From the NCBI RefSeq assembly GCF_900110295.1, contig NZ_FODF01000007.1, positions 1 to 64,000 on the forward strand: a stretch of DNA of 64,000 nt, read 5' to 3'. This stretch comes from Peptostreptococcus russellii (GTDB lineage Bacteria > Bacillota > Clostridia > Peptostreptococcales > Peptostreptococcaceae). The notes below the pieces were generated by a model. It was not told the DNA's origin, did no database searches, and was given only the letters and a program-made list of their open reading frames with translations. The translations under genes were made by a program, and so were the position numbers. Below are positions 3,969 to 11,736 of this stretch, one piece after another (position 1 is the stretch's first letter; the number at the start of each line of letters is the position of its first letter).

Positions 3969-4274
3969 TCTACTAAAAATAAAAAACAATTTTAAAAAGG
4001 AACCATTTATTTAAAATGAAATTATAATTATAGTATAGCATATTTATGGCAAAATACAAGCTTATTCTTAAATAAAGTTGATAATAATAGAATTAATCTA
4101 TTGCTAATTTTATTTTTTTATATTTTTACCTTTTATAATTAATTTAGTATATATTAATTATATTAAGTTTATCCTAAAATTATTTTTTCTAATAAAAACG
4201 TTTTCAATTTATTTTAGTTATTTTCTAATATTTATTACGTCTTTATAGCATTTTTATTTATTTAACTAATAATT
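3948..4274 (-). ncRNA. Possible minus-strand non-coding transcript
   Basis: On the minus strand, TTGACG (4310-4305), 18 bases and TATAAT (4286-4281) make a good sigma-A promoter. About 310 bases downstream a perfect 8-base-pair hairpin TAGCTGCC/GGCAGCTA (3948-3968) is followed by TTTTT, a standard terminator. Between them there is no reading frame longer than about 22 codons and no ribosome-binding site worth the name. This suggests a roughly 330-base RNA, but the region is so AT-rich that the promoter could be chance. Confidence 0.3.
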
Positions 4275-8424: not shown

Positions 8425-9396
8425 CTACATAACGCTCTGACAAGCTGTTATTATACTTAGCTTATAAACATCTTCTGCATTACATCCTCTTGATAAGTCA
8501 GTTATAGGCTTATTTAATCCCTGAAGTATTGGACCTAATGCTTCGAATCCACCTAATCTCTGAGCTATCTTATATCCTATATTACCAGCTTCTAGAGATG
8601 GGAATATAAATACATTAGCATGTCCTGCAACCTTAGAACCTGGAGCCTTCTGACTACCTACTGATTCAACTATAGCAGCATCAAACTGTAATTCTCCGTC
8701 AAGTTCTAATTCTGGATCTAATTCATGAGCAAGCTTTGTAGCTTCTTCAACCTTAGTTGCTAAATCATGCTTAGCTGATCCCTTAGTTGAGAAACTTAAC
8801 ATAGCAACCTTTGGGTCTATTCCAAACATTTTTGCAGTCTTTGCACTTTCTACTGCAACCCCTGCTAGACCCTCAGCATCTAGTTCTATGTTTATTGCAC
8901 AGTCACCAAATATGTATCTAGTGTCGTCCTTCATCATTACGAAAGCACCACTTGTTCTTGATACGCCTGGCTTAGTCTTTATTATCTGAAGAGCTGGTCT
9001 TACAGTATCACCAGTTGAATGAACTGCACCACTTACCATACCGTCAACCTTGCCCATATAAGTAAGCATTGTTCCAAAATAGTTTTCGTCAAGAAGCTTC
9101 TTCTTAGCATCTTCTACAGTTGCCTTCCCCTTTCTTCTTTCAACGAAAGAATCTACCATAGCATCGAACTCATCATAGTTAGCTGGATCAACTATTTCAA
9201 CACCTTCAATATCTATATTCTTTTCAGCAGCTACTGCCTTAATCGCATCTACGCTACCTACTAGAACTGGTACTAATATACCTTCCTTGTGTAGTCTTGA
9301 AGCAGCTTCAAGTATTCTTGGTTCCTTTCCTTCTGGTAGTACTATTCTTACATTCTTACCTTCAATCTGAGCCTTTAGGCTTTCCATTAATTCCAT
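8425..9396 (-). CDS. pta: Phosphate acetyltransferase
   Basis: A 323-residue single-domain Pta that interconverts acetyl-CoA and acetyl phosphate, the step before acetate kinase in fermentative ATP production. The 'MLSFSTKGSAKHDLATKV' and 'ANVFIFPSLEAGNIGYKI' blocks are characteristic. The length fits the short class I enzymes of Firmicutes. The ATG at 9396 has GGAGG 8 bases upstream. It follows the RseC-like gene by 31 bases and its own terminator lies at 8383-8408. Acetate kinase is not in the window. Confidence 0.95.
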   Translation of the reverse strand: MELMESLKAQIEGKNVRIVLPEGKEPRILEAASRLHKEGILVPVLVGSVDAIKAVAAEKNIDIEGVEIVDPANYDEFDAMVDSFVERRKGKATVEDAKKKLLDENYFGTMLTYMGKVDGMVSGAVHSTGDTVRPALQIIKTKPGVSRTSGAFVMMKDDTRYIFGDCAINIELDAEGLAGVAVESAKTAKMFGIDPKVAMLSFSTKGSAKHDLATKVEEATKLAHELDPELELDGELQFDAAIVESVGSQKAPGSKVAGHANVFIFPSLEAGNIGYKIAQRLGGFEALGPILQGLNKPITDLSRGCNAEDVYKLSIITACQSVM

Positions 9397-9427: not shown

Positions 9428-9889
9428 TTATAGAGTATCTACCGTATCTAAATCTATCATAACGCGAGTTACTGTAGGCATATATTCTCTACTATCCCTA
9501 AGTTTTGCGTCTTTAAGCTTGATTCCTAAATAAGCAAGCCCTGTAAATGCAAATCCAATCAGCATACTATACACTTCTAGCATATCGCCACCTATTGTAT
9601 TTTTAAGGACATAGTATCCTCCTACTGTACCAATAAGCAAAGCTATTAGCGGTATTCCATACATTATCCCCAATGCCTTCATTACATTTACCTTTTCCAT
9701 ACTTACCTCTACATAGTCACCAACCTTGGCACCTGCAGAGTTGTCGACCTCAACAATAAGATCTTGAGATTCACTACTTGTCTTCGAACTGAAGCACTTT
9801 CCACACTTCGCTCATGCAGATTGCCTCTGCATTTTAAATCTTGCAGTTTTTTCGTCGACTATCTCAACAATATATCCTTTTTGGTCCAT
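9428..9889 (-). CDS. RseC/MucC-family protein with in-frame TGA: candidate selenoprotein
   Basis: From ATG 9889 (GAGG about 7 bases upstream) the frame runs 25 codons to TGA (9814-9812) and then continues in the same frame without interruption to a stop at 9428, 153 codons in all. The parts before and after the TGA belong together. Residues 1-25 end in QRQSA, the TGA is position 26, and the chain resumes as AKCGKC. RseC relatives have Cys at that place (SACAKC), giving a CxxCxxC cluster. Two membrane helices follow (about 70-115). The simplest reading is selenocysteine at 26; a point-mutated pseudogene or a sequencing error is the alternative. An internal ATG at 9700 would give only a cluster-less 90-residue fragment. 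It lies between aspS and pta. Confidence 0.7.
9779..9814 (-). promoter_or_regulatory. SECIS-like hairpin following the in-frame TGA
   Basis: On the minus strand, 21 bases after the TGA, there is a stem TG-CTTC / GAAG-(A)-CA with a 5-base loop AGTTC (9779-9796). This meets the general bacterial SECIS description: an upper stem of at least 4 pairs, a small apical loop with a G among its first two bases, and a loop 16-37 bases after the UGA. The stem is short, so it is suggestive rather than proof. Confidence 0.5.
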
Positions 9890-9948
9890 ACTTTAACCTC
9901 ATTTTCTAATACACAAACTGTAAATAAACTTATTATAAATAAGTATTT

Positions 9949-11736
9949 CTATTTTTCTTCTTTAACATCTACCTTTATACTTAACTCTTCTAACTGCTCA
10001 TCATCAGCAAATGACGGTGCATTTGTCATAGGGCAAACAGCATTTTGATTCTTAGGGAAAGCTATGACTTCTCTTATATTATCTGCACCAGCAAGAAGCA
10101 TTACAAGTCTATCAAGACCAAATGCCAAACCACCATGTGGTGGAGTACCAAACTTAAATGCATCTATAAGGAATCCAAATTTATTGTAGGCTTCCTCATC
10201 AGTAAATCCTAAAGCTCTAAACATCTTCTGCTGTATTTGAGAGTCAGATATTCTTATTGAACCTCCACCTACTTCATAACCGTTCATTACTATATCATAC
10301 GCCTTTGCTCTTAGCTTATGCTTGTCTCCAGTTTCCAAATCATCAACATCTTCATCTAAAGGTGAAGTAAATGGATGATGCATTGCTGCAAATCTTCCTG
10401 TTTCTTCATCTTCTTCAAATATTGGGAATTCTGTTACCCATAACATATTAAACTGGTTTTTATCTGCTAATTCTAGCTTCTCTGCAACTGCTATTCTAAC
10501 CTGTCCTAAGGCATTGAATACTACAGAGTCCTTATCAGCTACAAATAATAGAAGATCCCCTTCTTTTGCATTCATAGCCTTTACTATATTTTCAAGTTCT
10601 TCTTCTGTAAAGAACTTAGCTATAGGAGATGCTACTCCTTCATCTGTAATCTTCATCCAAGCAAGTCCCTTAGCCTTATAAGTCTTTGCGTGATCTTCTA
10701 AGTGTGAAATTGCCTTTCTTGTGAACTTTTCAGCTCCGCCTTCTACATTTATACCTCTTACTGAGTATCCTTCCTTAGCACATCCTGAAAATACCTTAAA
10801 TCCACAATCTGCTACTGTATCTGTAATGTCTACAAATTCTAGACCATATCTTGTATCCGGCTTATCTGAACCAAATCTTCTCATAGCTTCTGCATATGTA
10901 ATTCTAGGGAATGGAATCTCAACGTCCTTATTTAAAACCTGTTTAAATATTTCTTTAAGCATTCCTTCCATTATTGTCATTACATCTTCTTCTTCTACAA
11001 ATGACATTTCACAGTCTATCTGAGTAAACTCTGGCTGTCTGTCAGCTCTTAAATCTTCATCTCTGAAACATTTTACTATCTGGAAGTATCTATCCATACC
11101 ACTTACCATTAGTAGCTGCTTGTATAGCTGTGGTGACTGTGGAAGTGCATAGAACTTTCCTTCATTTACTCTTGATGGAACAAGATAGTCTCTTGCACCT
11201 TCTGGAGTAGGTTTTACTAAGAATGGTGTTTCTATTTCACAGAAATGATTATCTGATAAATAATTTCTTACAACATTTGTAACCTTGTGTCTAAGCATAA
11301 GATTTTTCTGCATCTTAGGCTTTCTAAGATCTAAGTATCTATACTTTAATCTTAAAGATTCACTTACTTCATCGTCATCCTTTATATATATTGGTGGTGT
11401 TTGAGATTCATTAAGAACTCTAAGTTCTTCTGCAAATATTTCAATATCTCCAGTAGGCATATTAGCATTCTTAGACTGTCTTTCACATACCTTACCTCTT
11501 ACTGCTATTACATATTCGCTACCTAGCTTTTCTGCCTTCTTAAAAGCTTCTTCGCTAACATCTGTATCAAATACAACCTGAGCAATTCCAGCTCTATCTC
11601 TCAAATCAACGAAAACAAGTCCACCAAGATTTCTTTTCTTCTGAACCCATCCCATTATTATTACTTCTTTTCCTATGTCAGAAGCTCTTAAATCTCCTGC
11701 ATAAGAAGTTCTCTTAAATCCTTTTAAATTATCCAA
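9949..11736 (-). CDS. aspS: Aspartyl-tRNA synthetase
   Basis: A 595-residue bacterial-type class II synthetase charging tRNA-Asp. It has the N-terminal OB-fold anticodon domain ('GWVQKKRNLGGLVFVDLRDR'), class II motif 2 ('FRDEDLRADRQPEFTQID'), the bacterial GAD insertion domain in the middle, and motif 3 ('GLAFGLDRLVML'). Translation starts at TTG (11736) with GGAGG 8 bases upstream. It follows hisS by 16 bases, in one operon. No T-box leader is seen before the pair. Confidence 0.97.
   Translation of the reverse strand: MDNLKGFKRTSYAGDLRASDIGKEVIIMGWVQKKRNLGGLVFVDLRDRAGIAQVVFDTDVSEEAFKKAEKLGSEYVIAVRGKVCERQSKNANMPTGDIEIFAEELRVLNESQTPPIYIKDDDEVSESLRLKYRYLDLRKPKMQKNLMLRHKVTNVVRNYLSDNHFCEIETPFLVKPTPEGARDYLVPSRVNEGKFYALPQSPQLYKQLLMVSGMDRYFQIVKCFRDEDLRADRQPEFTQIDCEMSFVEEEDVMTIMEGMLKEIFKQVLNKDVEIPFPRITYAEAMRRFGSDKPDTRYGLEFVDITDTVADCGFKVFSGCAKEGYSVRGINVEGGAEKFTRKAISHLEDHAKTYKAKGLAWMKITDEGVASPIAKFFTEEELENIVKAMNAKEGDLLLFVADKDSVVFNALGQVRIAVAEKLELADKNQFNMLWVTEFPIFEEDEETGRFAAMHHPFTSPLDEDVDDLETGDKHKLRAKAYDIVMNGYEVGGGSIRISDSQIQQKMFRALGFTDEEAYNKFGFLIDAFKFGTPPHGGLAFGLDRLVMLLAGADNIREVIAFPKNQNAVCPMTNAPSFADDEQLEELSIKVDVKEEK

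Follow-up and report, generated by a model that had tools for sequence, protein, structure and literature searches.

A gene of the RseC family with an in-frame TGA

The window, a 64,000-nucleotide stretch of the Peptostreptococcus russellii genome (contig NZ_FODF01000007.1, positions 1 to 64,000), carries on its minus strand a gene of the RseC/MucC family, rseC, whose frame contains an in-frame TGA. It lies between aspS and pta, with the following features:

9428..9889, minus strand: rseC with in-frame, putative Sec-TGA; 153-residue product with UxxCxxC and two hydrophobic stretches (about residues 67-96 and 103-123)
9812..9814, minus strand: TGA, codon 26, candidate selenocysteine codon; TGA at the same codon in 8 further species
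9803..9805, minus strand: Cys29 codon of the UxxCxxC cluster
9794..9796, minus strand: Cys32 codon of the UxxCxxC cluster
9782..9794, minus strand: weak SECIS-like hairpin, CUUC-AGUUC-GAAG, whose loop follows the TGA by 21 nt and whose upper stem has -1.2 kcal/mol
9428..9700, minus strand: 90-aa ORF of the table-11 ORF lister; internal Met start, without the Cys cluster
9949..11736, minus strand: aspS, immediate upstream neighbor of rseC (Pfam tRNA-synt_2, GAD)
8425..9396, minus strand: phosphate acetyltransferase gene (pta), immediate downstream neighbor of rseC (Pfam PTA_PTB)

Reading the sequence confirmed the frame described in an earlier note on this DNA. It runs on the minus strand from ATG 9889 to TAA 9430-9428, 153 codons that are open except for a single internal stop, the TGA at 9814-9812 (codon 26), which is flanked by QRQSA and AKCGKC. 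The assignment to RseC was upheld as well, as the read-through protein matches Pfam RseC_MucC (PF04246) over residues 9-142 with 107.4 bits (E 6.5e-31; gathering cut-off 24.4). Against the E. coli-type equivalog (NCBIfam PRK10862) it scored 24.4 bits and did not reach the cut-off of 184; we class the predicted protein as a member of the RseC/MucC family and not as an E. coli-type equivalog. A search of solved structures gave 0 matches.

The three N-terminal Cys positions of RseC/MucC fall at residues 26, 29 and 32, and these columns are invariant in three alignments when TGA is read as C. Codon 26 is the position of the first Cys in the CxxCxxC cluster, as the note had proposed, and 59 of 68 homologs have TGT or TGC there. 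The note had also expected a standard call to yield only 90 residues from 9700 and to lose the cluster, with which the table-11 ORF list agrees.

The TGA recurs at codon 26 in at least nine species

Read codon by codon, codon 26 of the 68 homologs is TGA in 9, TGT in 50 and TGC in 9; because these homologs were picked by score and by TGA presence, 9/68 is not a frequency. The nine TGA copies come from nine species, the window's included, in five genera, four families and two classes. Within the genus, all nine genomes have an RseC match; seven carry TGT or TGC, and TGA is found in the window's genome (G000) and in G002. In the family, 66 of 71 genomes have a match and TGA is also found in G041 and G042, which belong to another genus; G040, of that same genus, has TGT. 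A sample of the order gave matches in 176 of 393 genomes and, among the matches listed, TGA in G158 and G149, from another family.

We also searched with a degenerate DNA pattern, which matched in 15 of 392 genomes. Five of these were TGA copies already found, two (G150 and G200, third family) were RseC genes with TGA, and the seven others that we opened (L109-L115) were not RseC; the match in G120 was left unopened, so the TGA copies represent at least nine species. A class sample (matches in 177 of 391 genomes) held no additional TGA among the matches listed, and a phylum sample (137 of 329) held one among those listed, in G805, from another class. Of the eight TGA genomes found first, six show a single RseC match; G150 and G200 have two matches each.

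A TGA at this position could be a nonsense mutation in a decaying pseudogene or a misread TGT or TGC, and the TGT in close relatives such as G006 (same genus, 74% identical) is what one would expect in that case. However, the raw codon in related genomes, which the earlier note had suggested reading, is the same TGA in eight further species, with no decay, no further stop before the natural end, and, in four pairs of species, purifying selection (see below). Sequencing error is unlikely because the TGA recurs in eight independent assemblies. Given the nine-species recurrence and the purifying selection, we rejected a pseudogene or misread codon, which we consider extremely improbable. We conclude that TGA at RseC codon 26 is beyond chance.

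Selenocysteine machinery in the TGA genomes

The window's genome (2.13 Mb, 58 contigs) contains selA (608 bits) and selB (345 bits), both above cut-off, and a tRNA-Sec with anticodon TCA (UCA; 62.6 bits). Adjoining selA is selD, which has an in-frame TGA of its own, in GGUAAK. A further 317 kb of the genome yielded two GrdB-type genes and a PrdB-type one, each with TGA where Sec is known to be encoded:

L001, minus strand, near 4048; L141, minus strand, near 1582; L142, near 19822; L146: other in-frame Sec-TGA genes of the window's genome (SelD, two GrdB-type, one PrdB-type)

We take these genes to be SelD, GrdB and PrdB by their motifs. Rfam SECIS_4 matches one of them (GrdB) at 64 bits. The earlier note had considered the machinery plausible and had named its absence as a finding that would count against selenocysteine; selA, selB, selD and tRNA-Sec were all found.

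Among the eight other TGA genomes, selA is above cut-off in seven (G002, G041, G042, G149, G158, G150 and G200). In the eighth, G805, a tRNA-Sec(TCA) lies some 200 bases away from a SelB (35% over 661 aa, E 2e-120); no SelA was found in the 1.15 Mb examined out of about 3.1 Mb. As selA is common in the order (above cut-off in 245 of 393 genomes), its presence in the TGA genomes is not discriminating. A single member of the genus, G007, is without selA; it also has no selB above cut-off, and its codon 26 is TGT; this genome seems to have lost Sec decoding.

Alternatively, a suppressor tRNA or an altered code might make UGA stand for an ordinary residue such as Cys or Trp. The near absence of TGA as a terminator would fit, as it ends 0 of 44 ORFs of at least 100 aa in the window and 5 of 237 ORFs of at least 120 aa in the 317 kb elsewhere. 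However, at least two of those five ORFs belong to GrdB/PrdB-type genes and end where Sec is known to be encoded, and the full Sec machinery with a canonical tRNA-Sec(UCA) is present, so that we assign this possibility a minimal probability. A general change of the code was rejected, since the other UGA genes seen, in the part of the genome scanned, are known Sec sites.

The share of TGA among terminators was 0-3% in samples of five related genomes and 7% in G158.

Selection downstream of the TGA

In four within-genus TGA pairs (117-126 codons each), dN/dS after the TGA was about 0.22, 0.22, 0.18 and 0.06, indicating purifying selection 3' of the TGA in 4/4 species pairs. Neither decay nor a product simply ending at codon 26 fits these values.

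The TGA might instead be a true regulatory stop, which would end a 25-residue leader peptide and be followed by reinitiation at ATG 9700 to produce a 90-residue membrane part. A GAGG lies a few bases 5' of ATG 9700, and Sec-UGA codons in general are subject to competition between termination and Sec insertion, both of which favor such a scheme. However, in Cys homologs the Met at 9700 is conserved and internal, and conservation continues through the stretch from TGA to ATG, including Cys29 and Cys32. We thus regard a regulatory stop as very unlikely; reinitiation at 9700 could take place alongside Sec insertion.

Silent sites were compared in a span from codon +5 to codon +12 3' of the TGA; this span is uniform across pairs, yet was fixed after the sequences were seen. 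In the four TGA pairs, 27 of 29 silent sites are identical in this span, compared with 235 of 397 outside it (P 8.8e-5). The control, 34 Cys-Cys pairs, has 103 of 209 identical, and there the span ranks 99th among 137. For the TGA pairs, the four highest-ranking of the 137 spans begin, in descending order of rank, at +6, +5, +7 and +8. Silent-site identity over hand-picked hairpin spans was 24/24 (P 5.6e-6); because those spans were picked after inspection, we rely on the uniform span. G000 and G002, which are non-sisters on the protein tree, have the same codons all the way from TGC to AGT, differing at the first loop base alone.

A SECIS-like hairpin follows the TGA

The bacterial SECIS model, as set out in passages of a 2026 inventory of prokaryotic selenoproteins (PMC13188914), has a stem of 4-16 bp, a loop of 3-9 nt with G in loop bases 1-2, and a spacing of 16-37 nt, with an MFE of -7.5 kcal/mol or lower as its energy criterion; according to the same passages, part of the known SECIS elements fall outside the model. 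The SECIS check proposed in the earlier note came out divided. Its geometry was found in 9/9 TGA genes, with the hairpin 19-24 nt 3' of the TGA, but an Rfam search of the window's rseC region gave no SECIS, and the window's hairpin (-4.5 kcal/mol with the hairpin enforced) misses the energy standard. The hairpins outside the window are:

G002: SECIS-like hairpin CUUCG-GUU-CGAAG
G041, G042: SECIS-like hairpin UGACG-GUUU-CGUCA
G158, G149: SECIS-like hairpin CUUGUC-AGUUUG-GACAAG
G150, G200: SECIS-like hairpin CUUGCC-AGUUG-GGCGAG
G805: SECIS-like hairpin GGUAUG-GGA-CAUACC

The arms vary between lineages but still pair. By our own energy calculation, rather than bSECISearch, and with G805 outside the set, a hairpin of -1 kcal/mol or lower is present in 8/8 TGA rows versus 15/56 Cys rows, and one of -4 kcal/mol or lower in 6/8 versus 6/56. 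With the hairpin enforced, 6/8 TGA genes reach -7.5 kcal/mol; G149 misses it at -7.0, and four Cys rows (G032, G117, G166 and G091) reach it in the same calculation.

When the TGA genes were shuffled synonymously, single-gene P values were 0.03-0.31, with a combined P of 0.015 (one gene per lineage); the window's gene was not significant (P 0.21), and P was below 0.1 in 5 of 59 Cys rows. The unconstrained fold 3' of the window's TGA was no better than shuffles (z 0.21). As controls from the same genome, Rfam missed the SECIS of SelD and matched that of GrdB, and the same simple metric rates the PrdB-type gene as weak (-2.0) and SelD (-9.4) and GrdB (-7.5) as strong.

In G032, the Cys-form rseC (TGT) has a strong hairpin, UCAGAAG-GUCU-CUUCUGA, at -7.4 kcal/mol and 24 nt after codon 26 (L026). 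This is perhaps a relic of a Sec form that reverted to Cys; more generally, hairpins in Cys copies may have arisen by chance or be left over from a Sec codon since lost.

The selenocysteine reading of the earlier note is thus strongly supported, on sequence grounds, by the recurrent TGA, the machinery, the purifying selection and the hairpin geometry. We consider it very likely that the window's gene encodes a selenocysteine-containing RseC (Sec-RseC). The UGA at codon 26 would be decoded by SelB with Sec-tRNA(UCA), helped by the hairpin about 20 nt 3', and the product would be a membrane protein of 153 residues whose UxxCxxC site is cytoplasmic and has Sec where Cys-form RseC has the first of its three conserved cysteines. 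For this organism we infer Sec insertion, SECIS function, redox or Fe-S chemistry and a link to Rnf, and the membrane topology of Sec-RseC is likewise a predicted one.

Repeated switches between Cys and Sec

On a protein tree of 64 rows, the Sec label requires five changes, all forced by well-supported branches. A second tree of 63 rows, which added G805 and the Cys rows G1029, G789 and G807 and omitted five long-branch Cys rows (G089, G167, G072, G145 and G071), requires seven changes, six of them forced. G000 groups with the Cys-form G006, G002 with the Cys-forms G005 and G008, and G158 and G149 with the Cys-form G139. We conclude from these trees that there were at least five Cys/Sec switches in RseC, gain and loss being indistinguishable on the tree; Cys and Sec would have been swapped repeatedly at this site.

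In G000, G158, G200 and G805, rseC is preceded by aspS, with about 1.5 kb between the two genes in G805. In G042 the upstream gene is not aspS and is presumably CsoR-like. We take aspS upstream of rseC to be an old gene order. Recent whole-gene transfer as the source of the pattern was rejected, since aspS is upstream in the four TGA loci examined and several Sec rows stand next to sister rows of the Cys form from the same genus.

The aspS-rseC order spans two classes of the phylum (window 9428-11736; L096; L107; L173 6271-10040).

Relation to known systems and possible function

E. coli RseC, as described in parts of PMC11729352, belongs to the SoxR-reducing system and has cytoplasmic Cys26/29/35, which can hold an oxygen-sensitive Fe-S cluster; it stays active after loss of one Cys, a point against Sec being indispensable. 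Like it, Sec-RseC belongs to the RseC_MucC family and has three conserved N-terminal cysteine positions followed by two hydrophobic stretches. Unlike the CX2CX5C of E. coli, its motif is UxxCxxC with Sec at the first Cys, and by motif order Sec26 would be equivalent to E. coli Cys26. Clostridium ljungdahlii, also an anaerobic member of the Bacillota, has an RseC of the same Pfam family that, according to sections of PMC9124969, is required in autotrophy and without which rnf transcription drops. There rseC is upstream of rnfC (PMC9124969, same sections), whereas the window's rseC is between aspS and pta.

By analogy with other RseC proteins, the role of Sec-RseC is likely redox sensing, or cluster or electron support for the Rnf complex. 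More speculatively, and we think this rather doubtful, Sec26 might serve the RseC Fe-S cluster as selenolate ligand or as redox partner, setting a redox point for building or running Rnf. If so, a Cys/Sec switch would wire selenium supply into energy conservation in amino-acid-fermenting anaerobes, and such a switch would have been thrown at least five times within one phylum.

With the GrdB-type, PrdB-type and SelD genes of the same genome, the window's rseC shares an in-frame TGA and a downstream hairpin, and the UxxCxxC spacing is common to GrdB (in the part of PMC13188914 that gives it) and Sec-RseC. Those three are unrelated soluble enzymes, whereas RseC is a small membrane protein. In the inventory (PMC13188914), a UxxC or CxxU motif is found in many of the listed Cys-protein families; RseC, MucC and PF04246 are absent from its Table 1 of 119 prokaryotic selenoprotein families and subfamilies. 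A term search of deep-Sep (PMC12013277) and a 2022 review (PMC9312934) gave no mention of RseC, MucC or SoxR, and the NCBIfam matches of three Sec-RseC proteins include no selenoprotein RseC model. The earlier note knew of no selenocysteine RseC, and our searches of the published literature, preprints and most subscription papers being outside their scope, likewise showed no report of one among the papers listed. The best reading of these sequences is that Sec-RseC is a new, recurrently arising UxxCxxC selenoprotein family inside a known protein family.

Sec-RseC would add one family to the prokaryotic selenoproteome. Unlike many entries of the inventory, its Cys form has genetics (SoxR reduction in E. 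coli, rnf control in C. ljungdahlii) and an assigned Cys cluster, and close Cys and Sec relatives within one genus would provide natural pairs on the benefit of selenium for a small membrane redox protein. The locus is also an example of a gene trimmed by a standard ORF call to its cluster-free C-terminal part.
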